Of a DNA stretch of 46,364 nucleotides, positions 3,703-36,426 are shown in pieces; positions within the stretch are counted from its first letter, which is position 1; every line of letters begins with the position of its first letter. Position numbers and translations under genes: made by a program. Where the stretch lies: NCBI GenBank assembly GCA_026996295.1, contig JALWLL010000053.1, positions 1-46,364 of the forward strand. The letters are read 5' to 3'. The DNA comes from Sulfurimonas sp. GTDB taxonomy: Bacteria > Campylobacterota > Campylobacteria > Campylobacterales > Sulfurimonadaceae. Under the pieces are notes generated by a model that did not search any database, was not told the origin of the DNA, and saw only the letters and a program-made list of their open reading frames with translations.

Positions 3703-3717
3703 GTGTAAAAGCTTACT
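3690..3717 (-). terminator. probable terminator of the cytochrome/diguanylate cyclase operon
   Basis: Read on the minus strand, AGTAAG-loop-CTTACT (3698-3717) is followed by C and seven T residues (3690-3696). The stem has only 6 bp, and it covers the stop codons of the two converging genes. Confidence 0.45.
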
Positions 3718-4984
3718 TCTCTTTTATTTGATGAAGTATGACAGTATCTTTCCCTCTGGACTTTGCCTCATAAAGAGCATCATCTGAGACCTTCAACATC
3801 TCATCTATATCATCACTCCTGCCATAGGATATACCGATAGAAACCGTATAGTTGACAATAATATCTTTGAGCTCAATATCATTAAATTTAAAGTTCTTTC
3901 GTAGTTTGTCAAAAAGAGTCAGTGTATTTTCAAGTGATATATCTTCAAGTAAGATACAAAACTCTTCTCCACCAAAACGCGCAACAAGGTCTGATTTTCT
4001 AAGGCTTTTGTGAAGCACTGTAACAACTTCTTTGATGGCAATATCACCGATATCATGCCCATAAGTATCATTGATGTTTTTAAAATTATCAATATCAATG
4101 GTTGCAACGGCAATGGGGGTATTTTTTCTATGATTCTTGTTGAGTATGGCACTGCTTGCTTCAAAAAAGTAACGTCTGTTATAAGCACCTGTTAAAAAAT
4201 CTCTGTTGGCAAGGTTTTTAGCTTCTTTGAAAAGTTCCAAAACATCAAGGTTGGCATTGATTCTGACATTGAGCTCTTCAAACTGATGGGGCTTTGAGAT
4301 AAAGTCATTTGCTCCGGCTTTTATAAATTGTGTCAGGGCATCTACATCTTCTGTTGCGCTGATGGCAATGATCGCTAAAGTGTCTTTTTGAAATCGCTCT
4401 CGGAGTCTCATGGTAAGTTCAATACCGTCCATATTTGGCATATTATAGTCAGTGAGTACAACTGAGATGCTCTCACCCTGTGGCGATGCCATAATATCAA
4501 AAGCCTCTCTCCCGTCAATAGCTTCTATGACATTAAACTGTAGTTTATGCAGGTCATTTTTAAAAGCATCTCTAAAAAGTTTAGAATCATCAACGAGCAA
4601 AACACTCTCTTTGTAATTTCGAAGGACTTTTTTTACAAAATCGACTGCATAGGCGATGAAGTTTGGATTGGTAGTAGAAATGTGGTCTAAGATATTTTTC
4701 TTTGTCATAAGATGTTTTAAGACATTGTTTTCATTTTTACTAAGGACAATACTCGCAATATCGTGTGAGCTTGTCAACATAGCACCCTGTCCCTCTTCAC
4801 AATCGGGAAGTTCTATATTGATTACGGCTGCAGAAATTTGATTTTGATTATGTCTTATGATATTGTTCGCTTCTCTGTAGGTAGATGCTGCCAATATCTC
4901 CGTATTGCTCATATGTCGTTTTATCTCTATAGTTAAAGCAGATAAAGTTGCCGGACTTTCATCAACAAGCAATATTTTTTTCAT
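3713..4984 (-). CDS. double-receiver response regulator diguanylate cyclase (REC-REC-GGDEF)
   Basis: A 423-residue cytosolic protein with PleD-like architecture. Receiver 1 spans about residues 2-117, receiver 2 about 126-245 and GGDEF about 260-420. Receiver 2 looks competent for phosphorylation (VDDS 131-134, acceptor D179 in TDYNMP, K231 in SKP). In receiver 1 the acceptor position holds N56 (INIELP), so it is probably an adaptor. The cyclase site reads GGEEF at 338-342, with the product-inhibition I-site R329-K-S-D332 exactly five residues before it. The protein should therefore make c-di-GMP from two GTP and be feedback-inhibited. It is the last gene of an operon behind a membrane diguanylate cyclase (10-nt gap) and a cytochrome. 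No cognate histidine kinase is adjacent. Confidence 0.92.
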   Translation of the reverse strand: MKKILLVDESPATLSALTIEIKRHMSNTEILAASTYREANNIIRHNQNQISAAVINIELPDCEEGQGAMLTSSHDIASIVLSKNENNVLKHLMTKKNILDHISTTNPNFIAYAVDFVKKVLRNYKESVLLVDDSKLFRDAFKNDLHKLQFNVIEAIDGREAFDIMASPQGESISVVLTDYNMPNMDGIELTMRLRERFQKDTLAIIAISATEDVDALTQFIKAGANDFISKPHQFEELNVRINANLDVLELFKEAKNLANRDFLTGAYNRRYFFEASSAILNKNHRKNTPIAVATIDIDNFKNINDTYGHDIGDIAIKEVVTVLHKSLRKSDLVARFGGEEFCILLEDISLENTLTLFDKLRKNFKFNDIELKDIIVNYTVSIGISYGRSDDIDEMLKVSDDALYEAKSRGKDTVILHQIKEK

Positions 4985-4994
4985 TGTCTATTCC

Positions 4995-6548
4995 TTACTC
5001 TATTTCTGATTCTTTTTTGGTGTGATCATAAACTTCGATGCGGTTACGTCCGTTTTCTTTGGCGACATAAAGAGCTTCATCGGCTTCGGCAAAGACTTTA
5101 AGATGATCTGTATGATCTTTTCTTAAACAGCTCATACCGATACTTGCTGTAGTCTCAATACTTTGCGATTCAAAAACAACAGGTTTGCTTGAAATAGTTT
5201 CAAGTATGATATTTGCGACCTTTATGGCAACATGAAGTGTTGTCATTGGGAGTATAACGACGAGCTCTTCTCCTCCATAACGGCCAATAAAGTCAGTTTC
5301 TCTTAAACAACTGGTGATGCGGGAGCTGATCTCTCGAAGTACTTCATCTCCCGCCATGTGCCCATAGGTATCATTGACGTTTTTGAAGTGATCAAGATCG
5401 ATGATCATTATGGATATATCGAAGTTATGGCGTCTGGCACGCTTGAACTCCATCTCTAGCATCTCTTCGAGGTAGCGTCTGTTCCAAAGGCCTGTGAGGG
5501 CATCTGTTTTACTCAGTATCTCTATGGCTCTTGTTCTCTCTTTTACCAACATCTCCAAACGTTCTTTTTCTTTACGTGACTGCTCAATCGCAGAGAAGTA
5601 AATACTTCTGGTTGTAAACAGGGCAAACAGTAAAGCGATAAAAGTGGTGACAGAGGCGGTACGTATAAGTTGAAACTCATGGTTTGAGTATGCAGTAGCA
5701 TCTGTTATGAGTAAAAGTTTTAAGTTTTCATGACCATTTTTACTGATATCTGTTGTCACAAGGGTACGATAAAGCGGACGTTCATCTGAGAGCGTAAGGA
5801 AGCCCGGCGGTGGCAGTTCTTTGTTTGATAGTACGGTTCCTATGATATTTTTATTGCTACTGACATGTACTTTATTTTGTGAATCGAGTAAAGAGATCTC
5901 CAAAATATTTTTTGTAGATTGAATATAGTTGTACAAAAACTCATTAATATCTGTTTTTGCCGATACATCAAGGGAGTTTTTAATAGAGCCTTCAATGGAT
6001 TTTAAAAGATTTATAATATCTGATTGACGGCGAAGTACCGAAAAGTTCTCATTGGAATTATCTAATACTTTATATTCGGATATATCTACAGCCAGATCAA
6101 TAAGGCCGATAAGCTCATTGTCTTTGTAGATAGGGTAGTAGATGGCCATAACATCTACATAGTCCCGAACTTCAAAAAAGAACTGCTTAATTTTTTGCTC
6201 TCCCTGCATTGTACGTACATAACTCTTGTTTGTATAGACCTTACCGATCTCATCTTGAAACATAGAGTTTCTGATGGTTCCATCGGGTTCTAAAAATCTA
6301 AATTCAAATATTTCCAAGCCAAATGAAACATCCTTCACCAGTTTTTGAAGGTTCATCGTTGATTTAATAGCATCAAAGCGATTAATTGCGGCTGTAACAG
6401 AACTGACAATATTGAGAGAGTTGTTATGCATTTGTGTCAGTAAAAGGTTCTTTTGAATTTTATAGTTGTAGTAGGAAAGGTAAGCTATACCCAGTACAAG
6501 CATGAGCAGTACAATCGGTATTTTGTATCTTCTAATTAATGTTGCCAT
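4995..6548 (-). CDS. membrane diguanylate cyclase with periplasmic sensor domain
   Basis: A 517-residue protein. One membrane helix lies at residues 9-27, and a periplasmic region of about 265 residues with the look of a Cache-type sensor follows (for example YPIYKDNELIGLIDLAVDIS). A second helix lies at about 294-316, then a short coiled coil (EQSRKEKERLEMLVKERTRA), then GGDEF at about 340-505. The active site is GGEEL (424-428), with an I-site R415-E-T-D418 at the canonical distance, so activity with product inhibition is expected. The gene begins 4 nt after the stop of a tetraheme cytochrome. Such spacing implies translational coupling and hints that the periplasmic sensor and the cytochrome serve one signalling unit. 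The ligand is unknown. Confidence 0.92.
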   Translation of the reverse strand: MATLIRRYKIPIVLLMLVLGIAYLSYYNYKIQKNLLLTQMHNNSLNIVSSVTAAINRFDAIKSTMNLQKLVKDVSFGLEIFEFRFLEPDGTIRNSMFQDEIGKVYTNKSYVRTMQGEQKIKQFFFEVRDYVDVMAIYYPIYKDNELIGLIDLAVDISEYKVLDNSNENFSVLRRQSDIINLLKSIEGSIKNSLDVSAKTDINEFLYNYIQSTKNILEISLLDSQNKVHVSSNKNIIGTVLSNKELPPPGFLTLSDERPLYRTLVTTDISKNGHENLKLLLITDATAYSNHEFQLIRTASVTTFIALLFALFTTRSIYFSAIEQSRKEKERLEMLVKERTRAIEILSKTDALTGLWNRRYLEEMLEMEFKRARRHNFDISIMIIDLDHFKNVNDTYGHMAGDEVLREISSRITSCLRETDFIGRYGGEELVVILPMTTLHVAIKVANIILETISSKPVVFESQSIETTASIGMSCLRKDHTDHLKVFAEADEALYVAKENGRNRIEVYDHTKKESEIE

Positions 6549-6552
6549 CTGC

Positions 6553-7182
6553 TTACCTATATCTTCTCTTTGAGTTTGGATCTGCTTTTTTGTATTTGTT
6601 ATATGCTTTATCTAGATTATGATATGATCTGTCCCAGCGCTCATTATGGCAGCTTATGCACATTTTTTTTAAAACTTCTGGTCTGTCTGTACCGGCTAAA
6701 AAACCTCCAGAATGAAAAGAGTCTCTTTCTCTTTTTGCCATTTTTATATGTATATTACCGGGACCATGGCACCCTTCACACTGAACATTGGAAAGGCGAG
6801 GTGTTTTTTCAAGACTAATAAAACCTGTCGGTGTACCAAAACCGGTCGCATGACAGATGAGACATTTTGGATTGTTCTCATAACCTTTTTTTTCAAGACT
6901 CTTCATTGCATAATCATGAGGGTCTTTTTTTCTTCCTAGGAAAAATTTTCTGTGGCACAAACGACATTTGGAGTTACCGACATATCTGTACTTTCCTGAG
7001 CCGATGGCATCATTGTATGCTTCTTCTCCAAGAGCATCTTTGAGGGGGATATTATGTAGTTCGGATTCCATCTCTGCATTGACGCGAGGATTATCGCCTG
7101 CCACAAGAGTTAATGGCATAAAAGATATAAAAATTAAAAATATTTTGAAAAAAGAAGTGTTGCTATTTTTGCTATTATTCAT
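6553..7182 (-). CDS. periplasmic tetraheme c-type cytochrome (cytochrome c554-like)
   Basis: A 209-residue exported protein. Residues 10-28 or so form a signal peptide ending near LTLVAGDN. Four CXXCH haem-binding motifs are present: CRLCH, CLICH, CEGCH and CISCH. The stretches YVGNSKCRLCHRKFF, CLICHATGFGTPTGF and NVQCEGCHGPG match the cytochrome c554-type multihaem family. The mature protein should carry four covalent haems and move electrons in the periplasm. A purine-rich site (AAAGAGAC) precedes the ATG at 7182. It is the first gene of an operon with two diguanylate cyclases and has no oxidoreductase partner nearby. That makes a redox-sensing role worth considering, though an ordinary electron carrier is equally possible. 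Confidence 0.88.
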   Translation of the reverse strand: MNNSKNSNTSFFKIFLIFISFMPLTLVAGDNPRVNAEMESELHNIPLKDALGEEAYNDAIGSGKYRYVGNSKCRLCHRKFFLGRKKDPHDYAMKSLEKKGYENNPKCLICHATGFGTPTGFISLEKTPRLSNVQCEGCHGPGNIHIKMAKRERDSFHSGGFLAGTDRPEVLKKMCISCHNERWDRSYHNLDKAYNKYKKADPNSKRRYR

Positions 7183-7414: not shown

Positions 7415-7864
7415 ATGGAAATAACTTTACTTGTAAAATCTATATTGGGGCTTGTAGTTGTTTTAGGTCTGTTGATCTTTTTGTTGATACTTCCCGGTAA
7501 AACAAAAAAGACTCAAAAAAAATCTGGAGAAAAAACTCTAAAAACACCTGTTACTAAAGAGTTGGAGCCAACACTTGAGGATTTGCGTAAAGTTATAAAA
7601 AATAAAAAATCTACCGAAGCCGAGCTCAAAGAAGCTTTAGAGACGGTTATTAAAAAATATGGAAAAGTACATAAAAAGTTAGGTTTAAGAGCACATCCTG
7701 ATTTTGATATCTATATGGATATGCTCTTTACAATCTGCCGTCATCCAAATACCAATAAAGATATCATTGTTCAATTTGACAGAGATCTTGGAAGACTCAA
7801 TCCGGAATACAAAAAAGAGATCAATGAAGCGATCACAAAAGGTCTAAATTCCCGAGGTATCTAA
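7415..7864 (+). CDS. small membrane-anchored hypothetical protein
   Basis: A 149-residue protein of unknown function. One strongly hydrophobic N-terminal helix (residues 5-27) is followed by a Lys/Thr-rich linker (GKTKKTQKKSGEKTLKTP) and a compact helical domain of about 95 residues (DLRKVIKNKKSTEAELKEAL, then YMDMLFTICRHP, then FDRDLGRLNPEYKKEINEAI). It looks like a single-pass protein with a cytosolic helical domain. Its last 21 nt overlap the 3' end of lapD on the opposite strand, so the two transcripts converge. No catalytic motif is visible. The start is set by the promoter-like box just upstream; the ribosome-binding site is weak. Confidence 0.7.
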   Translation: MEITLLVKSILGLVVVLGLLIFLLILPGKTKKTQKKSGEKTLKTPVTKELEPTLEDLRKVIKNKKSTEAELKEALETVIKKYGKVHKKLGLRAHPDFDIYMDMLFTICRHPNTNKDIIVQFDRDLGRLNPEYKKEINEAITKGLNSRGI

Positions 7865-9790
7865 CCCTTCAAAGTTTGTAACTTCTGTGATCTTTCCTTG
7901 AACTATGAGTATATCTTTTCTCAGTAGTTTTGGCAGTGCATCTTGCGTGTTTACCCCAGTGGCTATAAGAGAGATCCCTACCGTATCTGTTATAAGCCTT
8001 AGTGCAGAGAGTGCCTGTTCACTTTGTGTGAGAAAGTAATCGGCTTCCCCTTTTATGTAGCTTGGTCGCAACTCCTGAAGATACCTGTAGTCTTCACTCT
8101 CTCCTATAAATTCATACACACCCATATCGATATGATACTTCTCAAAAAGCTTTTTATAAAGTTTTGCAAGTTTTAGATGTTTATGTAAGATTCTGTCAGG
8201 CATCTCAATGATGATCTTAAACGGAAGCTTGCTTGCATATGTGGCGAAGAGTTTTGAGAGTTCATCATATGTTGAAGAGAGTTTTAAATACTCACAAGAG
8301 AGTCTGAGTGAACAGATGGAGCCCTTTAAAGCTTGATCGGGTGTTTTAAACACTTTTTGTATAATAACTTTATATACTTTTTCGCCAAGTCCCGTTTGAT
8401 TCGCAAGAGCCATAAACTGTCCGTAGGAGTATGTATTGCCATCGTGTGCATGCATGGAGATGCTGAGTACATTGTGTGCGACTTTTTTTGTCTTTATCTC
8501 TATGGCTTTGTAGGCAACGAATGAAAAACTGTTTGTGTCAATAGCTTCTAGTATTGTTTTTCTCCATGCGTCTTTTCCCATGATCTCTTTATCATCTTCT
8601 AAAGGCTCAAGGTGTATATGAACATTGTGGAATTTGGCTTGGGCAAGAGCGTTGTCGGATAACGATAACAATTGACTAACGCTTTGTTTGTAGTTATACT
8701 CGCAAATACCTATGGATATAAAGGTTATATCACTACTGAGTTTATGAGATGTGATAGTGTTATTGACAGAGTCATAGATATTTTGTGCAAGTTGTGTCGC
8801 TTTTTCATTGGAGCACTCCGGAAGTAAGATGGCAAATTCAGTACCGTTCATTCTTGCAACTATAGAGTTATGAAACTCTTGTGCACAGAGAGTGAAGATA
8901 TTTGCGATCTCTATGAAAAGTTCATCTACATTTTTGTGGCCAATTTGCTCATTGGCTTCTATAACACCACTGAGTGAGATCATCATATTGATTCCCCCCT
9001 TGGAGGAAGCATCACTTTTGAGATAGGCAGGTAGTTTGTCTATAAGGTATTTACGGTTTTTGAGTCTGGTGGTTTGATCTATATACTCCATCTCTTTATG
9101 TCTTTTAAGCTCCTCATTCCCTTTATCAAACATAGCTTTGACCTTTTTAACCATACTGTTCATACCGAGTACCACATCTCTGAACTCTTTTGTATAGGGG
9201 ATCTCCTCTTGGATGATAAACTCATTTCTTATGACGGCTTCAGCCTGTTGCTGTACCCTTTTGAGCGGTTTTAAAATGATATGTAAAAGCAGACCAAGAA
9301 GCACAAGAGCACAAATCGCTAAAATACTAAACGAAATAGTAAGACCCTTTAAGATACTATAGAGCTGATTGTATGCGTAGGTGGTGTCGCTTTGTACATC
9401 CAAAATCCCAATAGGACTCCAACCTGCAGATACATTTGCAGATGCTATGGGTGCATCTATATCCACGATATCCAAAAACCATTTTGGCACATCACTGTGC
9501 TCACTCTCATTTTTGCGTTCATATACGATATTGCCGTCTATATCGCTCAGTGATATATAATGGTAGTTCCCACTGTCAAAATTCGCATTGATCATAGTTG
9601 ACATCATAGAGATGTCACCATTGGCACTTCCAAGGGATAAACTCAACGAAGTAGCAGTGTTCTTGGCATCTTCATAGAGCCTTTCCTGCACAGAATGATT
9701 TGCACTTTTAAAGTTCAATGTTAAGACCGTTGTGAGTAAAATGATTAAAAATATTGATAGCAAAAGTGCTATTTGTCTGAAGAGTGTCAT
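7844..9790 (-). CDS. lapD: LapD-type inner-membrane c-di-GMP receptor
   Basis: A 648-residue protein with every LapD hallmark: a membrane helix at 5-25, a periplasmic output domain to about 148, a second helix at about 150-171, HAMP to about 220, then GGDEF-like and EAL-like domains. The periplasmic domain carries the family motif G-W-x-x-x-G-x-L (GWSPIGIL, 123-130), whose Trp inserts into LapG in known systems. Both catalytic domains are degenerate: GGDEF reads NGTEF (315-319) and EAL reads NVL (440-442). It should therefore bind c-di-GMP without making or degrading it. In characterised systems c-di-GMP-bound LapD holds the LapG protease, so surface adhesin is retained. The ATG overlaps the lapG stop (ATGA), which fits translational coupling. 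Confidence 0.93.
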   Translation of the reverse strand: MTLFRQIALLLSIFLIILLTTVLTLNFKSANHSVQERLYEDAKNTATSLSLSLGSANGDISMMSTMINANFDSGNYHYISLSDIDGNIVYERKNESEHSDVPKWFLDIVDIDAPIASANVSAGWSPIGILDVQSDTTYAYNQLYSILKGLTISFSILAICALVLLGLLLHIILKPLKRVQQQAEAVIRNEFIIQEEIPYTKEFRDVVLGMNSMVKKVKAMFDKGNEELKRHKEMEYIDQTTRLKNRKYLIDKLPAYLKSDASSKGGINMMISLSGVIEANEQIGHKNVDELFIEIANIFTLCAQEFHNSIVARMNGTEFAILLPECSNEKATQLAQNIYDSVNNTITSHKLSSDITFISIGICEYNYKQSVSQLLSLSDNALAQAKFHNVHIHLEPLEDDKEIMGKDAWRKTILEAIDTNSFSFVAYKAIEIKTKKVAHNVLSISMHAHDGNTYSYGQFMALANQTGLGEKVYKVIIQKVFKTPDQALKGSICSLRLSCEYLKLSSTYDELSKLFATYASKLPFKIIIEMPDRILHKHLKLAKLYKKLFEKYHIDMGVYEFIGESEDYRYLQELRPSYIKGEADYFLTQSEQALSALRLITDTVGISLIATGVNTQDALPKLLRKDILIVQGKITEVTNFEGLDTSGI

Positions 9791-10428
9791 ATCTTTTTCC
9801 TTTTCATGTTGAGTTTAAGTTCATCCCATTTTTTATGAGATTTGTGTTGTTTTATCTTTTTGCCTGCACCTGATTTTTCTGCCCTGTAGAGACTTTCACC
9901 ATTAAAGTTATAGATAGGGATCAGATCTTTTCTTTGTGATGCCGGAAAGATCTTTTTGTTGTTATTGTCTAAAATAAGCGGTTCGCTGCGGGGTGTTTTA
10001 AAGTATGTTAAGACCATGTGGGGCGCTTTGAATTTTCTAGAGCGAACATAGGTAAAGAAAAGCTTTTTTGAGTCGATCCCCAGATACAAAAGCGCAAAAT
10101 ATTTACTGATGACATAATCTTCACAATCACCCATATCTTTACCCAAAAACTCCCACGGTGTCGCCCAGTAGTCTTTTTTGTTATAAACTTTCATGTCAGA
10201 TGCGTACTTGACATCATTAAAAAAATCATTGACCGCTTTAAGCTTTTGCAGATCTGTTGCTTGTTTGGCATCATCAAGTACTGCTTGAAGATACAGAAAT
10301 CTTTTTTTTGCATATAGAGTATATTTTTTGGTTATTTTCTTTAGTAGGTCACTCTCCACATAAGGGGTATCGGCATGAACAATATTTGTACATAATAAAA
10401 GCAATAAAAGTATTTTAGAGATATACAT
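9787..10428 (-). CDS. lapG: LapG-type periplasmic cysteine protease
   Basis: A 213-residue exported transglutaminase-like protease of the LapG family. From the ATG at 10428 a clean signal peptide reads MYISKILLLLLLCTNIVHA. The conserved block WATPWEFLGKDMGDCEDY supplies the catalytic Cys102 and nearby acidic calcium ligands; His137 (APHMVLTY) and Asp154 (LILDNNN) complete the triad with family-like spacing. It is predicted to cleave the N-terminal region of a large LapA-type adhesin unless LapD sequesters it. An upstream in-frame ATG at 10482 is rejected because a TATAAT box lies between the two. No adhesin or type I secretion gene lies in this window, so the substrate must be elsewhere. Confidence 0.92.
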   Translation of the reverse strand: MYISKILLLLLLCTNIVHADTPYVESDLLKKITKKYTLYAKKRFLYLQAVLDDAKQATDLQKLKAVNDFFNDVKYASDMKVYNKKDYWATPWEFLGKDMGDCEDYVISKYFALLYLGIDSKKLFFTYVRSRKFKAPHMVLTYFKTPRSEPLILDNNNKKIFPASQRKDLIPIYNFNGESLYRAEKSGAGKKIKQHKSHKKWDELKLNMKRKKI

Positions 10429-10456
10429 AATGTTCTTTGTGAATGTTTTTGCAATG

Positions 10457-10462
10457 ATTATA
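10457..10462 (-). promoter_or_regulatory. putative -10 box of the lapG-lapD operon
   Basis: A perfect TATAAT on the minus strand lies 29 bp before the preferred lapG ATG. It argues against the longer lapG reading that starts at 10482. Confidence 0.5.
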
Positions 10463-10494
10463 CTAAAAATATAGTACCACATAGGTTAAAATTT

Positions 10495-12193: not shown

Positions 12194-13630
12194 TTATATG
12201 GTTTTGTTGTATTCATCAAGCATAGCATTGAGCTTTTTATAAAGCTCCCCAGAAGCTTCTTCCATCACTTGGAAGTTCTCGACAATATGTTTAGGGTTAT
12301 CATATTTTAACGTAGAGTCATCTTTGACATATTCAAAGTTTTTAAATACAGAGTTGTGCACCAGAGCATGAGGTGCGTCAAGCTCTTTAAATGATTTTGT
12401 ATGACCAAAACGTTCTTTACCGACACCAAGGTACCATTTACCCATACGGCAATTTTTGTGATCACTGATAAGGGCATCTTTATTGGACTCTAAAATAGTT
12501 GAATATGCTTGAGATTTAAAGATGATGTGATCAACTTTGACAAGTGTTGTAAAAAGCCTGTTTTGCACTTTAACAGCGGCGATGGAAGACTCTTTTGCAA
12601 GAGAGTTAAGTTGTGTAAATGTATTTTCAAACTCATGGATCACATCGTTTGAATCTTGTGCGATCTTAGAGATGTTTTCAGAGTTGCTTCGCATATCGTT
12701 GGCATCTTGTTGCAGGGTGGAGATATTGATCTCGATCTCATTCGTTGCTTTTTGTGTACGCTCTGCTAGTTTTCTCACCTCATCAGCTACAACGGCAAAG
12801 CCTCGTCCATGTTCACCTGCACGTGCAGCTTCTATGGCTGCATTAAGGGCAAGAAGGTTTGTTTGATCCGCGATATCCTTGATAAGACTGACAACTTCTG
12901 AGATCTCGTTGGAGCGTTGCTCAAGACTTACAATACCCTCATGGCTTGATTGGATAAGATCTACCAAGTGGTTGAGCTTTTGAGCGATATCGACAACACT
13001 TTGCAAACTTTTTGATGATTCCTCGGCTGTCTTTTGCGCTACATCAGCGATCTCTTCAGCGTCATTTTGTGTTGTGTTGATATCATCTTGAATAACAACA
13101 AGCCCTGCACCTACACCGCCTCCTAATGTACTGAGATTGTGGGAGAGTTCACCCCTTATTTTTGTTTCATACCCACTGGCTATAGAGGCTATAGCTTTAT
13201 TGAGATCATTGGCGGTGGAGTGAAAAATACCATGAAGTCCGGCAGGAAAAGTACGTCTGTATGTTTTTCCTGTGGAAGCATTTTCTATGGTTGTATGGAT
13301 ATCTCTCATAAAGGCTTCTAGTTGATCGAGTACATCATTTATATTCCAAGCAAGTCTAGAGAGCTCAGAGTCGTTATCCGGTATGTGAGTGATTCTATCT
13401 TCAAGATCACCCTGTGCAGATTTTTGTAAAACCCTGTGAATGGAGCTTTTTATGATAGCATCATTTGGCGACTCAGAGTTCTCCGGTATAAAAACGGAGA
13501 GGATGACAACCAAAAAACTTACGGCTGTCAAAAGATACTGCGTAGAAATAAGACCATATATACCAATAGCTATAAGCGTGATGAAAAGTAGTATTGTTCT
13601 TTTACTCTTGAATAGAGATGATAAATTCAT
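12194..13630 (-). CDS. methyl-accepting chemotaxis transducer with CZB zinc-binding domain
   Basis: A 478-residue receptor. Two close membrane helices (about 12-30 and 32-48) leave no periplasmic sensor, as in Aer-type energy-taxis transducers. A HAMP-like region (60-150) leads into the signalling coiled coil, whose tip carries [20 protein letters not shown] (252-271) and [19 protein letters not shown]. The C-terminus has a CZB domain with the expected three-His one-Cys zinc ligands: H368, C394 (CRMGKWY), H421 and H425 (APHALVH). It should signal to CheA/CheW, which are not in this window. Its start lies 29 nt inside the upstream Aer-type PAS gene, so the pair probably forms one two-protein receptor, comparable to Campylobacter CetA/CetB. 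Confidence 0.92.
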
Positions 13631-14087
13631 CGTAACCCACTCCTTTTTCTTCTAAAATATCTGTTAAAATCTTAAATGAGGCATCTACACCACTGCTTTT
13701 TTCAACCTCTAACATCTTTGCATAAAGAGGTTTGATGGTCTCAAGGGCCTTTTGGTTTGGTTGGCGCCGTACGGAGTAATATCCTACAAGATTGCCCCTT
13801 TCATCAAGTGAAGCGGTAATATTTGCAAAAACCCAGTACTCGTTGTCATTTTTTGTTTTATTGAGCACATAAGCAAATACCTCCTCTTGTTTAACAATAG
13901 TATCCCAAAGGTATGTAAAAACTGCCTTGGGCATTTGAGGATGGCGGATAATATTATGGGGCGCCCCTAAAAGCTCCTCTTCTGAGTACTCTGCCATCTC
14001 CATAAAAATTTTATTAACGTAGGTTATTTTTCCTTTTAAATCGGTTTTAGAGACTATAAAATCGTTCTCATTCATATGTTTTTCCAT
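13602..14087 (-). CDS. Aer-type PAS domain protein (CetB-like redox sensor)
   Basis: A 161-residue soluble protein consisting of one PAS domain plus a short C-terminal helix. The segment [20 protein letters not shown] (45-64) followed by [11 protein letters not shown] and GYYSVRR closely matches the FAD-binding PAS domain of the aerotaxis receptor Aer. It probably binds FAD and reports redox or respiratory state. It has no transmembrane or signalling domain of its own; the overlapping downstream transducer would provide those. GAGGA lies a few nt before the ATG at 14087. I avoid a gene symbol because orthology to cetB cannot be shown by eye. Confidence 0.88.
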
Positions 14088-17706: not shown

Positions 17707-20208
17707 TTAATCACAAAAAGTACATACTTTATTGTTTGTAAGGAGTGCAACAAACTGCTCATTCGGCAGAGGTTTGGAGCAGATGTAGCCTTGACCCTCG
17801 TTACATTCAAGTCTTTGAAGAAAGTGTATCTGTTCTTGAGTCTCTATCCCCTCTGCAGTGATCTCTAGTCCCATAACTTTTGCAAGGGCTATAATAACTT
17901 TTGTGATCTCAACATCATCATCATTGTGAGGTATGTCATCTATAAAAGATTTGTCAATTTTAAGACGTGATAACGGAAGTTGTTTCAGATAACTCATGGA
18001 AGAGTAGCCTGTACCAAAGTCATCCATGGCGATATCTATACCTATCTCACGAATTTTATGAAGAACCTCAAGTGCCTTGTTGCTGTTCTCATACACATAA
18101 CTTTCTGTCATTTCAATCTCAAGAGACTGTGGTTTGATACCGGCATTTTTGATAGCATTTTGTAAAGTTCTTATGATATTGTGCTGGGAAAATTGTACAT
18201 TGGAGACATTGACACTTACTTGAGAGATGCAAAGATCCAATTCTTCCCACATCGCAAAATCTTTACACGCCTGCTCAATCACCCATGCCCCGATGTTTAT
18301 GATCTCTCCACTCTCTTCTGCAAGCGGTATAAACTGATCGGGTGTGACAAAGCCAAGTGTTGGGTTTTCCCAGCGAATAAGTGCTTCTGCCGCATAGATC
18401 TCTCCACTTTCAAGTGAGAATTTTGGTTGATAATAGAGTTTAAACTCATTTTTGCTGAGTGCTTCTTTGAGCTCTTTAAGCATTTTTGTACGGTTCTCAA
18501 GGGAAACGCTTAGCTCTTGAGAGAAAAATTGATAGCGGTTCTTCCCATTATCTTTTGCATTGTACATTGCAATATCGGCATTTTTAAGAAGTGTCATGGA
18601 ATCTCTTGCATCATCAGGATAGATGGCGATACCGATACTTCCCGTGATATGCATTCGGTTGTCATCAATGACAAGTGCAAGATTCATTTGCTCGATCATC
18701 TTGTGTGCGATCTCCTCTGCTGTAACGGCTGAGTCTAAATCTTCTATGAGAATATTGAACTCATCACCGCCGATGCGCGCTAAAAGATCATTTCTTCTCA
18801 TCACATGAGAGAGATTGTGTGCTACTTTTATAAGAAGTTTGTCCCCTACGTTGTGACCCAGAGTATCGTTGATACTTTTAAATTCGTCAAGATCAAGAAA
18901 AAATACCGCCAATTTTGTTTTGTTTCGTTTAGCTCTATTGATCGCATTTTCCAAACTTGTTAAAAACATAGCTCTGTTTGGCATTTTTGTAAGCACATCA
19001 TAGTGGGCAAGTTCATCAAGCTGAGACTCACGCTCTTTAATGGTTTGAGCCATTTTATTGAACTCTTGAGAGATAAGTCCAAGCTCATCATTGTTTTTAA
19101 TGGAGATCTTGTGTGAGTAATCCCCTTTGGTAATGATGCCAATTCCATCAAGAAGACGCTTGAGAGGTACAGAAAGAAGACTGTTGAGTAAAATAAGACT
19201 TATAATAAGTGTAACAATAACAATAGCGGCAATACTTGTAAGAAGCATACTTTTACTCTGCATTAAAGCACGTTGCAGTTCAGATTTGTTAATGTTTGCC
19301 GTTAAGAGCAGAAAGTCACTTTGCAAGGGGATTTTTACTGCACTAAAAAAGTAGTGCTCATTACTTCCCAAATGGAGATCTTGATAATGAAACTTAGAAC
19401 ATAGAGTTGGTAAAGATCCAAACTCTTTGATGCTAGATGTGTGCATATGATTGTCATGCTGTACTTTGATAGCGTCATGCTCAAAATAATAGTTTAAGAT
19501 CAAATTGTCAATATCTACGAGCTTATTAAGATCATCGATAGAAAGGTTTCTGTTGGCTTCTATATAGCCGACAATCTCACTCGCAGTATCTTTTGGATCT
19601 CTGTAAATCGGTTGAACAGAGACCATATTGAGTTTATTGTTGGAGTTCTCATTAAATACACCACTGCTGTGATTTTTTTGGAGTTTTGTATCAATATCAT
19701 GAGGCTTCTTACCAATACGAAAAAAATCTTCTTTTGTATCTTTTGCAAAATAGAGAGGTTTTGCATTTTGGTACGAAACATACCCAATGACATCCTCTTC
19801 TCTGTCAACAAAAGCAACAAGCTCCCGTTTGGTATTATAGATCGCTATATGATCACTTGTAGAGTATTTGCCTTCAAGACCTAAAATATCAATAATTCTT
19901 TTTTTCTCTTCATCAAAAATAGAATTTTGATAATTGTAGGTGTTCTCATAGTTTTTAATAAGATTGAGTGACGCGATAATGTCTTCATTTTCAGAGATAA
20001 AAAATGAACTCTCAAGTAAACCGGTTTTTATGGACTGCAGTTGTGTTTTTGTATTTACAAATGCTTCATAAAGTTTCTTTTTTGCATTTTTGTTAAAATA
20101 GTCATGCAGGTAGTTGTTACTGATAAGACCGATAGTGCTCATAGAAGCTATGGTTAAAAAAAGAGTATAAAGTACAAGCTTGAACTTAAGTGAAAAGAAG
20201 TGTTTCAA
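17707..20208 (-). CDS. membrane c-di-GMP enzyme with sensor, HAMP, GGDEF and EAL domains
   Basis: An 833-residue receptor. A membrane helix at about 10-30, a large periplasmic double-Cache-like sensor and a second helix (TSIAAIVIVTLIISLILLNS) precede HAMP, GGDEF and EAL. GGDEF is intact (about residue 479), with an RRND inhibitory site before it. The EAL domain keeps its motif set: EAL (about 607), the NVSN Asn, EMTES, DDFGTG, the Lys of KIDKSF and AEGIET. So it looks like an active phosphodiesterase with possible cyclase activity. The start is TTG at 20208 behind a good AAGGAG. It follows a periplasmic binding protein by 14 nt, which probably presents a ligand to the sensor. Confidence 0.92.
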   Translation of the reverse strand: MKHFFSLKFKLVLYTLFLTIASMSTIGLISNNYLHDYFNKNAKKKLYEAFVNTKTQLQSIKTGLLESSFFISENEDIIASLNLIKNYENTYNYQNSIFDEEKKRIIDILGLEGKYSTSDHIAIYNTKRELVAFVDREEDVIGYVSYQNAKPLYFAKDTKEDFFRIGKKPHDIDTKLQKNHSSGVFNENSNNKLNMVSVQPIYRDPKDTASEIVGYIEANRNLSIDDLNKLVDIDNLILNYYFEHDAIKVQHDNHMHTSSIKEFGSLPTLCSKFHYQDLHLGSNEHYFFSAVKIPLQSDFLLLTANINKSELQRALMQSKSMLLTSIAAIVIVTLIISLILLNSLLSVPLKRLLDGIGIITKGDYSHKISIKNNDELGLISQEFNKMAQTIKERESQLDELAHYDVLTKMPNRAMFLTSLENAINRAKRNKTKLAVFFLDLDEFKSINDTLGHNVGDKLLIKVAHNLSHVMRRNDLLARIGGDEFNILIEDLDSAVTAEEIAHKMIEQMNLALVIDDNRMHITGSIGIAIYPDDARDSMTLLKNADIAMYNAKDNGKNRYQFFSQELSVSLENRTKMLKELKEALSKNEFKLYYQPKFSLESGEIYAAEALIRWENPTLGFVTPDQFIPLAEESGEIINIGAWVIEQACKDFAMWEELDLCISQVSVNVSNVQFSQHNIIRTLQNAIKNAGIKPQSLEIEMTESYVYENSNKALEVLHKIREIGIDIAMDDFGTGYSSMSYLKQLPLSRLKIDKSFIDDIPHNDDDVEITKVIIALAKVMGLEITAEGIETQEQIHFLQRLECNEGQGYICSKPLPNEQFVALLTNNKVCTFCD

Positions 20209-20222
20209 CCTATACTCCTTGA

Positions 20223-21140
20223 TTAAAATATTGGTTTGATCTCATTAACATTGTCCTTGGTTACCTGAATGGTATCTAATATGATCTCTTTGGGAAGTTT
20301 TTTGCCTGAGAGTATCTCTATGGCTGCCTTTGCACTCTCTTTTGCACTGAGAGAATACACGAAACTGCTGTCTTGATAACCGTATTCAATAGCTTTTTTT
20401 GCAAAGGAGGTATAATCGATTCCAACACTTATGATAGAAGCAGGGTCAATGTTGTGCGCTCTTAAAGCCATTCTCGCTCCCACCAGCATACTGTCACTTT
20501 GAGACATTATAGCATCAAAATGTTTTTTTTCTTTGAGAAGCTTCTCAACACCGATAATTGCATCGCGCCCTAAGTAGTTCGCTGTATACTCTATCACCTG
20601 TATCTTTGGATACCGTTTGATAACTTCGTAAAATCCTCTGGTTCTTTTTCTTGTAACATCCGCCTTTGGGGTTCCTTTTAGTAAAAGGATCGTTCCTTTA
20701 TGGTTCATTTTTTTTACAAGATACATTGCAGCGTTTTGAGCGATCTTTTCATTGTCGGGATGTATATAGGTCGTGAAATCATCGCCTTTGATACTGCGCT
20801 CAACCATGATGACGGGTATGCCAAGTTTATATGCTTTTGAGATGATGGCCGCTGTTATCTCTTCATCGTAGGGGCTTGCCATAAGCAGATCGATATCTTG
20901 GCTTATAAAGTCCTCGATCTGTTTGACCTGCAATGCCCCGTTTGATTTTGCATTGCTGTAAAGAAAATGGATATTGGGGTATTGTGCAAGTGTGTCCTCA
21001 ACAACTCTAAGCTGTTTGAGGCGAAAAGAGTTATCAAGGGTGCCTTGGGAAAATGCGATAGTATAAATCTTCTCTTTTTGCAGAGTACTAGAGAGTACAA
21101 GAGTACAAAACAATGATAGTAACAGCAAGGATTTTAACAT
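20223..21140 (-). CDS. periplasmic solute-binding protein (sugar-type fold), likely sensor partner
   Basis: A 305-residue exported protein. The signal peptide is MLKSLLLLSLFCTLVLSS; the mature part has the type I periplasmic binding fold: YTIAFSQGTLDNSFR, then LLMASPYDEEITAAI, then GIPVIMVERSIKGDDFTTYI, then GTILLLKGTPKADVTRKRTR. It resembles ribose- and LacI-type binders (Peripla_BP_4) and TorT-like accessory sensors. No ABC permease or ATPase is nearby. Instead the gene directly precedes a GGDEF-EAL membrane receptor, so a ligand-sensing role controlling c-di-GMP is more likely than transport. The ligand is unknown. Confidence 0.87.
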   Translation of the reverse strand: MLKSLLLLSLFCTLVLSSTLQKEKIYTIAFSQGTLDNSFRLKQLRVVEDTLAQYPNIHFLYSNAKSNGALQVKQIEDFISQDIDLLMASPYDEEITAAIISKAYKLGIPVIMVERSIKGDDFTTYIHPDNEKIAQNAAMYLVKKMNHKGTILLLKGTPKADVTRKRTRGFYEVIKRYPKIQVIEYTANYLGRDAIIGVEKLLKEKKHFDAIMSQSDSMLVGARMALRAHNIDPASIISVGIDYTSFAKKAIEYGYQDSSFVYSLSAKESAKAAIEILSGKKLPKEIILDTIQVTKDNVNEIKPIF

Positions 21141-29182: not shown

Positions 29183-30094
29183 TTATGATACCCAAAGAGT
29201 TAAGAAGAGATAAACTGTGCCAAAAATTGCTATAACAGCGGTATCGATTTTATATCTAAGTGTTAAAGCCTTGTGCAAGTCGCTCGCCGTGATGATCTTA
29301 CCTCCAGTGCCAAAATAGGGTTTTTTCTTGATACTTCCAAAGTAGGAGGTGTCACCACCGAGTGCGACACCAAGAAAGAGTGCCATGGCAGTGATGGGGT
29401 GTCCTGCATTTGGGCTTTCATGTTTTTGTCCATCTTTGTAAAAGGCAAAGGGTTTTTGTTGTTGTGTGAGTAACATTATCAAAACAGCTGTTATGCGTGA
29501 TGGTATGAAGTTAGCCACATCATCAAGCTTTGCGGCAACTTTTCCAAACTTCTCATAGCGCATATTTTTGTATCCGAGCATAGAGTCCATAGTGTTGATG
29601 GTTTTGTAGATAATGATACCGGGAAGAGAAAAAAGCAGCAGATAAAAAAGCGGTGCGATAACACCATCGCTTAGATTTTCTGCATAGGTCTCAATAGCGG
29701 CTTTATAGATATCGCTCTCCTCCATCGTTGCAACATCTCTACTGACGAGTTGAGCAAGGGCTGTTTTTTTATCTTGGGTAGAGAGTAGCTCCAAAACACT
29801 ATCGTAGAGCATCTTATGAGCTAAAAACATAGCGCTTATGAATGAGCTGCAGAGTATGTAAAGGGTATAGGGTAACGCTGTAAGCAAGGCCTCAAGCAAA
29901 AAGCTTATGCTAGTGACAACAGCTAACACAAACATAACAAGTAACAAACCATTCAAAACAGTGTTGTTATAGAGTTTTTTCTCTGCAAAAGAGATAAGCT
30001 CCCCTATGATGATAATGGGATGTTTGATAAAACGAAATTCACCAAAGATTTTGTCAATGATGTAAGCTAAAAGGGCAATAAGCAAATTACTCAT
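29183..30094 (-). CDS. cbiB: adenosylcobinamide-phosphate synthase CbiB
   Basis: A 303-residue membrane protein of the CbiB/CobD amide-synthase family, close to the usual length. LIALLAYIIDKIFGEF with HPIIIIGELISFAEKKLYN at the start, ETYAENLSDGVIAPLFYLLL in the middle and SPNAGHPITAMALFLGVALG are family motifs. It joins cobyric acid to (R)-1-aminopropan-2-ol phosphate or ethanolamine phosphate with ATP. The aminoalcohol phosphate comes from the decarboxylase encoded two genes upstream. It overlaps the cobQ stop by 8 nt. Confidence 0.93.
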   Translation of the reverse strand: MSNLLIALLAYIIDKIFGEFRFIKHPIIIIGELISFAEKKLYNNTVLNGLLLVMFVLAVVTSISFLLEALLTALPYTLYILCSSFISAMFLAHKMLYDSVLELLSTQDKKTALAQLVSRDVATMEESDIYKAAIETYAENLSDGVIAPLFYLLLFSLPGIIIYKTINTMDSMLGYKNMRYEKFGKVAAKLDDVANFIPSRITAVLIMLLTQQQKPFAFYKDGQKHESPNAGHPITAMALFLGVALGGDTSYFGSIKKKPYFGTGGKIITASDLHKALTLRYKIDTAVIAIFGTVYLFLTLWVS

Positions 30095-31472
30095 GCAACA
30101 TTTTCTCTATATGATCCATATCTATATGCTTATCTATATGCATAGCAAATGTTTCTATCGCTTTTGCTTTGTAGGTTTGAAAAGAGTAGCCTTTGTAGTT
30201 TGGGTTTATGGAGCTAAAGAGTTTGTAGCGAAACGCATCACTCTCAAAGAGGGCATGGACAAAGGTTCCATAAAGATTTTTTTTCTTTTTTGCTCTTTTT
30301 GTTGCAACGGCGTTATGTATCTCATACCCATCGACAATAGTGCCAAAGAGGTTATAGGTGCCTTTTTTGAGAATCTTTTCTTTTTGAAATGTAACAGACC
30401 CTTTAAAACGCCCAAATCCCTGTACCTCTTTTTCATCAGATTCTATCATGAGGGGGTCAAAAATCTTCTCAAACATCATCTCATAACCGCCGCAAATAGC
30501 GACAATAACCTTCTCTTTTGAACTCAGAAGTGACTCAAAACCTCGCTCTTTTAACCATGCAAGATCATCCACAACCCTTTTGCTCCCAGGCACAACAACA
30601 ACATCGCACAGACTTGCTTCACTGAGTGAACTTACAAAAGTAAGCTCCACTTGTGCATCTGCAACAAGGGGCTCAAAGTCGGTAAAGTTTGAGATATGGG
30701 GTAATCTCACAACACCCACTTTGATGATGGCATCTGTTGTATCTTGCCTGTAGTTCATAAGGGATTGAGCATCTTCAAAGCCGAGGTTAAAAGGGCAAAA
30801 CGGTACAACACCGAGCACTTTGATGCCAAAACGCTCCTGTATGATCTTGACCCCCTCATCAAAGAGTGTCATATCCCCTTGAAACTTGTTGATGATAACC
30901 CCTATGAGATTTTTGCGAAGTTTTTTTGGAAGTAGTTTATACACACCGTATATGGAAGCAAAGACTCCGCCTTTTTGTATGTCGGCTACAAGTATGATTT
31001 TGGTGTTGAACTCATCGGCTATGAAAATATTGGAGAGGTCTTTTTGCATCAGATTCAGCTCAACCGGGCTTCCAGCACCCTCGGCAACTATGCACTCATA
31101 TGTTTTTCGTAATGTTTCAAAGGCCTCTTTTGCAAAAGGTTTGAGTGTATCGATATCTCGGTAATAGCTCCATACATCTTTGTTGCCGATATTTTTACCG
31201 TTGATAATGATATGCGCGCAGGAGTTGCCTCCCGATTTGAGAAGTACGGGGTTCATAGATACCGAGGTTTTCACCCCGATGGACTCTGCTGCAAAGTGTT
31301 GGGGGATCGCTATCTCGCCGCCGTCATCACTGACCTGAGAGTTGTTTGAGACATTTTGTGCTTTAAAAGGGGCAACTTTGATACCGCGATGGTGAAGGAG
31401 GTAGGTGATGGCAAAAGCAAGCGTTGATTTGCCGGCATCACTACTTGTTCCAAAAATACTAAGTGAATGCAT
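30087..31472 (-). CDS. cobQ: cobyric acid synthase CobQ
   Basis: 461 residues from the ATG at 31472; the open frame reaches 31664 but those residues would lie inside cobD and have no family match. The N-terminal synthetase domain shows SIFGTSSDAGKSTLAFAITY and APFKAQNVSNNSQVSDDGGE. The C-terminal glutamine amidotransferase domain shows VVVPGSKRVVDDL, the nucleophile Cys in VAICGGYEMM and the catalytic His in GTFVHALFE. It amidates adenosylcobyrinic acid diamide side chains to cobyric acid. It starts 14 nt inside the upstream cobD and overlaps cbiB downstream, so the three are coupled. Confidence 0.94.
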   Translation of the reverse strand: MHSLSIFGTSSDAGKSTLAFAITYLLHHRGIKVAPFKAQNVSNNSQVSDDGGEIAIPQHFAAESIGVKTSVSMNPVLLKSGGNSCAHIIINGKNIGNKDVWSYYRDIDTLKPFAKEAFETLRKTYECIVAEGAGSPVELNLMQKDLSNIFIADEFNTKIILVADIQKGGVFASIYGVYKLLPKKLRKNLIGVIINKFQGDMTLFDEGVKIIQERFGIKVLGVVPFCPFNLGFEDAQSLMNYRQDTTDAIIKVGVVRLPHISNFTDFEPLVADAQVELTFVSSLSEASLCDVVVVPGSKRVVDDLAWLKERGFESLLSSKEKVIVAICGGYEMMFEKIFDPLMIESDEKEVQGFGRFKGSVTFQKEKILKKGTYNLFGTIVDGYEIHNAVATKRAKKKKNLYGTFVHALFESDAFRYKLFSSINPNYKGYSFQTYKAKAIETFAMHIDKHIDMDHIEKMLHE

Positions 31473-32457
31473 GGAGCGCCTTTTGAAGTTTTTTATGTGC
31501 CTTTGTATCTTTGAGTGCAAAGCGAATATGCTTATGCGTAAGAAAATCAAAGCTTGTACAAACTCTCGTGAGTATTTTGTTGTTATAGAGATATTTATGA
31601 AGCTTTTTGGCATGTTTGGAGTGGGTGAGAAAAAAGTTGGCATCACTCGCATAAATGGTGTCAAATACGTTGGAGTCTTCTAAGATACGATAGAGTTCCT
31701 GTTTTCTCTTTTGGTGTATTTTTCTGCTTTTTTTTATAAACTCTGCATCGCTGAGCCTTTTTTGTAAAAATACGGCATCAAAAGAGGAGATACTCCATAG
31801 CGGAGCGTGAAGTTTTTGCACACTTTTTGTGTTGGTAAACACTGCACCTATGCGTACGCCCGCACAGCTGTAAAATTTTGAAAATGACTGCACTATAAAG
31901 AGCTTTTCATACTCTGCGATTCTGAAGCGTTGAGAGGGAAGAGCTTCAAACTCTAAAAAAGATTCATCAAGAATGATGGTGCAGTTTTGCTCCTGCCACA
32001 TAGCAAAAAGTTTATCGAGCTTATAAAACTTTCCCTCCGGGGTTGAGGGGTTGACAAAAACAACGATGGAGTTTTTTTTGACTCGCTTGTCTATGTTGCT
32101 CAAGCGATTTATCTTGAAAATGTTTTTGTTGTATTTTTTGGCAGCTTTTTCATACTCACCATAGAGTGGAGCATAGAGATAGACACGTTTTTCTTCCAAG
32201 CTCTCAAAGAGCTTGAAAATGGCGGTGGTAGCACCACTGTGAAGCGAGATCTGTGTAGGTTTGAGTGCGTAAGATTTTGCGATGGTTTTTTTGAGTTCTG
32301 TGTAGTTTGCATCGGCATAGGGAATGAGCATCGCATTTGTCGGGGTTATGTCTGTTTTTGGATGGTAGCAGTTGATGTTTGAGGAGAAATCTATGATCTG
32401 CTCAGGTAGGCAGCGAAGTTTTTTTGCTGCCTTGTAGATATTGCCGCCGTGTTTCAT
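31459..32457 (-). CDS. cobD: threonine-phosphate decarboxylase (CobD), PLP-dependent
   Basis: A 332-residue fold-type I aminotransferase-like enzyme. MKHGGNIYKAAKKL, then IIDFSSNINC, then NPSTPEG (136-142), then LDESF and the PLP lysine K194 in QSFSKFYSCAGVRIG identify the CobD family. It decarboxylates L-threonine 3-phosphate to aminopropanol phosphate, or L-serine phosphate to ethanolamine phosphate when a norcobamide is made; the choice cannot be read by eye. Its ATG overlaps the stop of a small upstream gene (ATGA). The substrate requires an amino-acid kinase, and no PduX-type kinase is seen here. Confidence 0.9.
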   Translation of the reverse strand: MKHGGNIYKAAKKLRCLPEQIIDFSSNINCYHPKTDITPTNAMLIPYADANYTELKKTIAKSYALKPTQISLHSGATTAIFKLFESLEEKRVYLYAPLYGEYEKAAKKYNKNIFKINRLSNIDKRVKKNSIVVFVNPSTPEGKFYKLDKLFAMWQEQNCTIILDESFLEFEALPSQRFRIAEYEKLFIVQSFSKFYSCAGVRIGAVFTNTKSVQKLHAPLWSISSFDAVFLQKRLSDAEFIKKSRKIHQKRKQELYRILEDSNVFDTIYASDANFFLTHSKHAKKLHKYLYNNKILTRVCTSFDFLTHKHIRFALKDTKAHKKLQKALHAFT

Positions 32458-32660
32458 ATATCGACATCATCCCAAAACTCGTTGAAGTCGAGGTTTGTCA
32501 TAGCGTTTTCATCTTCAAGGTTTTTCTCTAAAAGCTTTTTTTGCTCCTTCTCAAAATACTCCTCAAGCGCCTCGTTGATGATGGTGCTTGGATCTTTTTT
32601 GAGAAGTTCACTAAAGGTTTGCAGGTTTTGCATGTTGTATTGATCTATTGTTATTTGCAT
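32454..32660 (-). CDS. small acidic protein in the cobalamin operon, ribbon-helix-helix-like
   Basis: A 68-residue protein. The N-terminal strand MQITIDQYNMQNLQTF and the helix LLKKDPSTIINEALEEYFEK look like a ribbon-helix-helix fold (strand, then a helix with a polar turn), followed by a very acidic Asp/Glu tail (ENLED region, then FNEFWDDVDI). It could be a small DNA-binding regulator or an antitoxin-like protein, but no toxin gene is next to it. It is coupled to cobD by an ATGA overlap and lies 12 nt after the kinase gene. The function is unassigned. Confidence 0.65.
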   Translation of the reverse strand: MQITIDQYNMQNLQTFSELLKKDPSTIINEALEEYFEKEQKKLLEKNLEDENAMTNLDFNEFWDDVDI

Positions 32661-32672
32661 AGGGGATTTTAC

Positions 32673-33458
32673 CTAAATTTTACTAAGAAGCTCTTTGGCT
32701 CGTTTGGTATTTTTGTAGTGCTGTATCCGCAAAAGCGCGTAAAGATGTGCCGCTTTTTGCATACTGTGAAGCAGCTCCCCTTTGCTTAGTTTTTTAACAG
32801 CTCTTTGGTTGTATGTTTTGAGAAAAAGGTTGAGAAAACAGGGTGTGTGTTTGTTCGCATCAAAGGCTGTAAGTGCCACCGCCGCATCAAATACAAAAGC
32901 GCCGCTTCCACCATCGATAAAATCAAAAACAGCGATTTGCTCACCATGAAAAAGGGTGTTGTCTTTAAAGATATCTCCGTGAATAAAACCATCGTTTACA
33001 AGTTTGTAACCCTTGAGGTGTTGCAGTTTTTTGTAGTAAAAAAAATGATGCCTTTTGCAATAGTGTAACATATCATCGATACTGTAGTTCTCAAGAAAGT
33101 GTGTTTCACAAACCATGCGGTGGCTGAGGGCATGAAACTTTGAGAGAAACCTTGCAAGAGCCTGAATATGGTAGGTTTGTATGGTGTGTGGCTCTGAACC
33201 TGTGAGCTTCTCATAGAGGTGCCATTGCCTGTTTGAGGAGAGATGTCTGGGAACACGCAGCCCTTGTTTGTGAAAGAGCTTGAGACGTTGTGCATCGTGT
33301 GTAACATTACACTCTCTTTCATACTTTTTAAGAACATAATGCTCGGTGATGTAGGTTGTATCAACAACCCCTGATGTTGTAGGGGTAAGGGTGTTGATAG
33401 CAAAATCGGGAAAAAGTTTTTGTACCTCTTTGAGATCTATAGATGTTTTGACACCCAT
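32673..33458 (-). CDS. APH/choline-kinase-fold phosphotransferase, candidate L-threonine/L-serine kinase
   Basis: 261 residues from the ATG at 33458, which overlaps the upstream stop as TAATG; an in-frame ATG at 33491 lies deep inside the previous gene. The aminoglycoside-phosphotransferase fold is clear: K44 region YVLKKYE, Brenner motif FIHGDIFKDN (158-167) with catalytic Asp162, and the metal-binding VFDFIDGGSG. HSMQKAAHLYALLRIQHY closes the C-terminus. The fold phosphorylates small hydroxyl compounds. Encoded immediately before the CobD decarboxylase, it is a good candidate for the kinase that makes L-threonine phosphate in place of PduX. That role is inference from context; homoserine-kinase-like activity is the main alternative. 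Confidence 0.82.
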   Translation of the reverse strand: MGVKTSIDLKEVQKLFPDFAINTLTPTTSGVVDTTYITEHYVLKKYERECNVTHDAQRLKLFHKQGLRVPRHLSSNRQWHLYEKLTGSEPHTIQTYHIQALARFLSKFHALSHRMVCETHFLENYSIDDMLHYCKRHHFFYYKKLQHLKGYKLVNDGFIHGDIFKDNTLFHGEQIAVFDFIDGGSGAFVFDAAVALTAFDANKHTPCFLNLFLKTYNQRAVKKLSKGELLHSMQKAAHLYALLRIQHYKNTKRAKELLSKI

Positions 33459-33883
33459 TAAAGAGGACACTTTTTCATAATTTGGCTCCACTCAAACTCA
33501 AAATGTTTGCGTACATACTCTCGTGTGTGTGGTACTTGACATAGTGAGCAGTCTTGATGGATCTTGTTTGCGTACACTCCTGCTCTGCCGTCTTTCGAGT
33601 CGATGGCACAAAAACTGTACTTGGTTTTGCCTTGTATCTGCTCAATACCCTCATCGTTAAACCTAAAGTTTGGACAGGCACAAAGGTAGCAGTTGAGAGA
33701 GCTCATCTCATGACATTTTTGGTTTTTGGCATAAAGCGGGCAGAACTCAGGCTCTTTTTGCACCATGTTCTCAAAGTCAAAATACTCGATAACAGCCTCT
33801 TTGCCATAACCCTCTTTGAGAAGTTTTTTTACTATTGTTTGATGTTTGTTTGCATGTGTTTGAAACCATGAAGCATAACCCAT
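33458..33883 (-). CDS. cysteine-rich metal-binding protein (zf-like, PF04071 type)
   Basis: A 141-residue cytosolic protein with eleven cysteines. The cluster CPLYAKNQKCHEMSSLNC, continuing as YLCACPNFRF, resembles the Cys-rich small domain PF04071 that occurs in archaeal cobalamin proteins; two further pairs follow (KYSFCAID and QDCSLCQVPH). The cysteines could hold zinc or an iron-sulfur cluster. Its stop overlaps the kinase start (TAATG) and it lies 10 nt after btuC. From memory, a methanogen CobD that carries a Cys-rich region is reported as a bifunctional threonine kinase/decarboxylase. Here the equivalent parts may be separate genes. Confidence 0.75.
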   Translation of the reverse strand: MGYASWFQTHANKHQTIVKKLLKEGYGKEAVIEYFDFENMVQKEPEFCPLYAKNQKCHEMSSLNCYLCACPNFRFNDEGIEQIQGKTKYSFCAIDSKDGRAGVYANKIHQDCSLCQVPHTREYVRKHFEFEWSQIMKKCPL

Positions 33884-33893
33884 ACAGCCTCCC

Positions 33894-36400: not shown

Positions 36401-36426
36401 GGCAGAGACCTTTTTTGTGTATTGTA

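Follow-up and report, generated by a model that had tools for sequence, protein, structure and literature searches.

The Yersinia hmsCDE operon encodes a periplasmic redox-sensitive protein, HmsC, together with HmsD, a diguanylate cyclase (DGC) that carries a periplasmic domain (PMC8846402), and in Escherichia coli the multihaem c-type cytochrome TorC acts on the periplasmic part of the sensor TorS (PMC8534201). Cache fold and c-type haem are joined in one sensing unit in the sCache_heme domain (DUF3365), which is common in Campylobacterota (PMC12889525). The citrate-sensing cyclase GcbC of Pseudomonas fluorescens binds and feeds the cyclic di-GMP (c-di-GMP) receptor LapD (PMC8846402), and IsmP, a membrane c-di-GMP enzyme in its own right, acts with iron to control the DGC ImcA (PMC10904736). 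The oxygen/redox table of a c-di-GMP census holds haem-PAS, globin, hemerythrin, flavin and disulfide sensors, and the word "cytochrome" is absent from the main text of that paper (PMC8846402); no multihaem cytochrome/DGC pair was found in the literature searched, mostly outside subscription papers. Here we describe two adjacent genes in a 46,364-nucleotide stretch of Sulfurimonas sp. (Campylobacterota; contig JALWLL010000053.1 of assembly GCA_026996295.1, positions 1 to 46,364; hereafter the window), encoding a predicted secreted tetrahaem cytochrome, CYT, and a membrane DGC with a large periplasmic sensor, DGC1, an arrangement that has apparently not been described so far.

A preliminary description of the window had placed these two genes in a three-gene unit with a receiver-type cyclase, DGC2, and on the minus strand the three indeed follow one another from CYT through DGC1 to DGC2, with intergenic gaps of 4 and then 10 nucleotides (nt):

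6553-7182, minus strand: CYT, 209 amino acids (aa), putatively secreted tetrahaem c-type cytochrome of the c554 family, with four CXXCH motifs, a Pfam C554 match and a profile match to PDB entry 1bvb
4995-6548, minus strand: DGC1, 517 aa, transmembrane segment, periplasmic tandem PAS/Cache-like sensor (about aa 31-305), second transmembrane segment and GGDEF domain with RETD I-site and GGEE motif
3713-4984, minus strand: DGC2, 423 aa, REC-REC-GGDEF response-regulator cyclase, accessory

Domain searches bear out what that description said of each protein, with CYT above the gathering cut-off of Pfam PF13435 Cytochrome_C554 (54.4 bits vs 20.8) and preceded by a signal peptide recognised by eye, DGC1 carrying its GGDEF domain (169 bits) behind the membrane/periplasmic half, and DGC2 matching Response_reg (98.7 bits) and GGDEF (144 bits). 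The unit itself is smaller than was proposed. DGC1 lies directly downstream of CYT in 26 of 27 distinct CYT loci (each contig counted once, L028/L037 being one contig and L033/L098 another), with a spacing of -20 to +14 nt measured from the first possible start codon, whereas the same three-gene order, with DGC2 third, recurs in only three of the 27, the window included (the others being L033/L098 and L092). Because the association recurs in 26 of 27 loci, the adjacency exceeds chance, and the real unit is the CYT-DGC1 pair. Promoter-like sites were uninformative (16 seen vs 14.7 expected).

The two proteins also share their distribution among genomes. A search for CYT in 397 genomes of the class matched 16, 11 of them through close relatives at 12 loci (E below 1e-60) and five through weak matches only, and the periplasmic region of DGC1 (aa 30-305) matched 12 genomes of the same sample, 11 closely and one weakly, the latter (G254, L056) through a protein without CXXCH. 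Close CYT and close sensor fall in the identical 11 genomes, belonging to three families and five genera; under random placement the chance of this is about 1e-21, a figure overstated since the genomes are related. Within the genus (135 genomes), 15 genomes carry a close CYT, one a contig-end fragment and 25 weak matches only. A scan of named genomes, which detects close relatives only, so that distant versions outside Campylobacterota could escape it, returned seven loci, all in Campylobacterales, Helicobacteraceae, Hydrogenimonas or Sulfurimonas metagenome-assembled genomes; a plasmid search gave no match to CYT or sensor, and PHROGs gave no match. The carriers are a group of mostly deep-sea bacteria. 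All weak CYT matches (E about 1e-6 to 1e-3) were excluded from the counts; the six that were read (L020-L024 and L026, from other genomes of the class) are proteins of about 440-490 aa with eight CXXCH motifs, weakly related to CYT.

The 26 paired loci fall into seven kinds of neighbourhood, namely rplM-rpsI/nuclease (11 loci), flavoreductase (five), modABC-yaaA/tuf (three), Lap (three: the window, L033 and L092), mviN-cysS (two), and L044 and L097, the gene names (ccsBA below included) having been assigned by eye from the starts of open reading frames (ORFs). The L033 contig ends within CYT, leaving its Lap side unseen, and was grouped with the window since the remainder is 96-98% identical. 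No respiratory enzyme recurs beside the pair across the seven kinds, and a cytochrome found mostly with respiratory genes, the finding named beforehand as one that would count against a signalling role, is not what the loci show. Nor was an oxidoreductase present among the window neighbours examined (LapD, LapG, DUF4446-like, radical SAM, an uncharacterised convergent protein, ATP-grasp and permease), in agreement with the preliminary description. Other haem-related ORFs are scattered: in L097 a ccsBA-like ORF lies two genes upstream of CYT, with an 8-CXXCH ORF nearby (by eye), L039 has a 2-CXXCH ORF about 7 kb off, and the flavoreductase group a 1-CXXCH ORF downstream. A tree of 25 joined CYT and DGC1 rows tracks family and neighbourhood, as expected if the pair has been kept together while its genomic location changed. 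Across 25 pairs, CYT and sensor distances show a correlation of 0.85, or 0.61 once the share of the GGDEF domain is removed, which fits co-evolution and does not establish contact.

Every full-length CYT protein (26 of 26) has all four CXXCH motifs, and the only aligned cysteine columns are the eight of these motifs. The nearest solved sequence relative is cytochrome c554 of Nitrosomonas europaea (1bvb; profile match, E 3.7e-7), in whose alignment the four CXXCH motifs, H89 and H145 of CYT find counterparts. In N. europaea this protein is the electron acceptor of hydroxylamine oxidoreductase. Six histidines are invariant (25/25), the four of the haem motifs plus H89 and H145; less conserved are H188 (His in 17/25), M174 (Met in 21/25) and M93 (Met in 22/25). 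Two haems would therefore have no obvious conserved histidine partner, and their sixth position may be weak or open, so that both redox and ligand sensing are conceivable. Two more specific assignments fell away: CYT scores 34.4 against the curated cut-off of 400 of the Nitrosomonas cytochrome c554 model NF043010, and the UshA-like (seleno)protein model NF041198, considered as a source of CYT, gives 84 bits against 275 over positions 354-516 only, its C-terminal cytochrome half being what matches, with none of the 397 class genomes exceeding its cut-off. No CYT-GGDEF fusion occurs among the close CYT matches, whose open frames reach at most 248 aa (a 49-aa frame in G459 is a contig-end fragment).

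On the cyclase side, the catalytic GGEE and the RxTD I-site are kept in 25 of 25 DGC1 proteins, matching the GG[DE]E and RxxD motifs by which a diguanylate cyclase is recognised, and the sensor (aa 31-305) has neither cysteine nor CXXCH in any of the 25. A redox input would therefore need a partner. The same absence sets the sensor apart from sCache_heme, membership of which requires a CXXCH within the Cache domain: there the haem is covalently held within the Cache, whereas here the haems lie in a separate tetrahaem protein. A model of the sensor (eight sequences; predicted local distance difference test score, pLDDT, 71; predicted template modelling score 0.48), adequate for fold class only, shows two PAS/Cache-like modules (about 80-155 and 215-283) linked by a long helix. 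Its best structural matches are Cache/PAS sensors, among them the tandem Cache of PscC (Z 11.8 over 104 residues, root-mean-square deviation 2.3) and the proline-bound dCache of an Aeromonas DGC (7k5n; Z 10.4, 104 residues, root-mean-square deviation 3.2), while Pfam Cache_WalK reaches 25.0 bits against a cut-off of 27 and a PDB sequence search with the sensor gave no useful match (best E 0.61). Invariant residues are concentrated in module 1 (32 of 101, vs 8 of 101 in module 2), which is likely the working end of the sensor, serving as CYT dock or ligand pocket.

Beyond a divergent DUF4446-like gene, the window holds a LapD/LapG pair (7844-10482) that the preliminary description had left out:

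7415-7864, plus strand: DUF4446-like membrane protein, divergent from CYT (DUF4446 20.5 bits, under the cut-off of 27.4)
7844-9790, minus strand: LapD-like c-di-GMP receptor (LapD_MoxY_N, 117.7 bits, followed by GGDEF and EAL)
9787-10482, minus strand: LapG-like periplasmic protease (Peptidase_C93, 61.4 bits vs a cut-off of 27)

The LapD-like protein has the domain order LapD_MoxY_N-GGDEF-EAL and scores 302 bits against a cut-off of 1020 with the LapD model NF045673; the LapG-like protein reaches 184.6 bits with the LapG model, under its cut-off of 320. No LapA retention module above cut-off was found in the same genome (best 29.5 bits). Because L092 (G446) repeats the full block of radical SAM, LapG, LapD, DUF4446, CYT, DGC1 and DGC2 at 61-79% identity, LapD/LapG are likely the local output in the window, and not a universal one. 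In 41 chosen genomes, the 20 pair-free ones being the first listed and no random draw, a LapG match at E<=0.001 was obtained for 17 of the 21 that carry the pair and for 11 of the 20 of the same genus that lack it; at E<=1e-70, a cut-off set after the table had been seen, the figures within the genus are 15/16 vs 7/20 (Fisher p 4e-4, ignoring kinship).

As to DGC2, Pfam finds only the second receiver, whose acceptor aspartate (DYNMP or DYYMP) is retained in seven of seven aligned proteins; the acceptor position of the first is Asn in the window and L033. The PleD model NF007135 (REC-REC-GGDEF) gives 201 bits against a cut-off of 474. Receivers are common, and the receiver half is matched in 220 of 220 family genomes (E<=0.001). 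The best full relatives outside the three trio loci (G506, G333, G487 and G397; 51-55% over the receiver half) have no CYT nearby. On this distribution, DGC2 is an accessory gene and no conserved part of the unit. A partly syntenic locus in G397 (L114:3973-7205) has radical SAM, DUF4446 and DGC2 without LapG, LapD, CYT or DGC1.

We propose, with confidence and doubt in about equal measure, that CYT is a dedicated periplasmic input subunit of DGC1 and that the redox state of its haems is the signal. In kind this is the reading of the preliminary description, which had the haem protein report periplasmic redox state to the cyclase, confined to the first two genes. CYT would be exported and loaded with four c-type haems, and would dock onto the periplasmic tandem PAS/Cache-like sensor. 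The oxidation state of these haems would depend on periplasmic electron donors and acceptors and would alter docking or docking geometry; the signal would pass via the second transmembrane segment and a coiled coil to the GGDEF dimer, setting the level of c-di-GMP synthesis. In the window, the neighbouring LapD probably reads this c-di-GMP and would in turn control the LapG protease and cell attachment, with DGC2 as a putative second, optional input through a receiver-type cyclase. The idea resembles HmsC-HmsD and TorC-TorS, the combination of a soluble multihaem cytochrome with a DGC being what differs. HmsC works by cysteine pairs, and a disulfide switch of that type finds no counterpart here, where every aligned cysteine of CYT belongs to a haem motif and the sensor has none; TorS is a histidine kinase and no DGC, and TorC is a respiratory pentahaem cytochrome coupled to TorA. 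GcbC offers a parallel on the output side, as it feeds LapD and a LapD-like gene lies near the pair in the window, but it senses citrate itself and has no cytochrome partner.

Several observations weigh against this proposal. The AlphaFold model of CYT (seven sequences) has a pLDDT of 41, and haem ligands cannot be placed in it; no consistent charge complementarity exists between CYT and sensor (sensor isoelectric point 4.8 to 9.4); a stand-alone CYT paralogue with all four haem motifs, the one locus of the 27 that lacks DGC1 downstream, exists (L035:9276-9902), in a genome that also carries the pair; and the nearest folds of the sensor are ligand-binding Cache domains, so that a small-molecule pocket is possible. 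As to the output, LapD/LapG are seen beside the pair in just two loci, the window and L092, and four of the 21 pair-carrying genomes (G311, G053, G057 and G199) gave no LapG match.

The ligation pattern bears on a variant, in our estimate unlikely, in which CYT is the input subunit and the signal is a gas or other small ligand, such as nitric oxide (NO), at an open haem site rather than redox. That only H89 and H145 are invariant beyond the four haem histidines, leaving two haems without an obvious conserved histidine, speaks for it, although the missing ligands might be supplied by Met174 or some other residue. In cytochrome c554, one haem is five-coordinate. Haem-Cache sensors fused to signalling parts show NO-sensor properties (PMC12889525). 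The sensor fold points elsewhere, to a DGC1 that binds its own small molecule while CYT is an ordinary electron carrier merely co-expressed with it, as its nearest relatives among ligand-binding Cache domains, including the proline-bound 7k5n, would suggest, and as would the cytochrome-related ORFs near the pair in L097 and some 7 kb off in L039; but an ordinary carrier would not be expected to keep a cyclase partner at 26 of 27 loci and to co-occur with the sensor in 11 of 11 genomes with no recurring oxidoreductase around it, and we regard this account as quite improbable.

Least probable, in our judgement very unlikely, is that CYT reports its own maturation, its apo form binding the sensor so that haem supply or cytochrome assembly is sensed. 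Apo-TorC inhibits TorS through the periplasmic region of the latter (PMC8534201), and the ccsBA-like gene upstream of CYT in L097 would suit such a role. The level of TorC is worth sensing given its partner, TorC reportedly serving as electron donor of TorA, but CYT is not coupled to an enzyme of this kind.

Elsewhere in the window, recognised by eye, a sugar-type periplasmic binding protein (305 aa) lies directly upstream of a membrane GGDEF-EAL protein (833 aa; 17707-21140), forming another possible pair of periplasmic partner and c-di-GMP enzyme. A tandem PAS protein followed by a methyl-accepting protein (12194-14087) resembles a split Aer-type redox/energy taxis receptor, and genes at 29183-38259 (biosynthesis enzymes, TonB receptor and ABC importer) are cobalamin salvage/uptake-like.

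We return to CYT as the proposed haem-bearing subunit of DGC1. Whether a soluble multihaem cytochrome has here been recruited as the sensing subunit of a DGC, giving Campylobacterota a haem-to-c-di-GMP module through which redox or a haem ligand would tell cells to attach or leave, via LapD/LapG in the window, seems to us evenly poised. Bacteria living in steep redox gradients must decide when to attach. If the proposal is true, this two-gene module would link periplasmic electron flow directly to their attachment, working by haems and not by thiols or flavins, and would bring a further kind of input into the c-di-GMP census.

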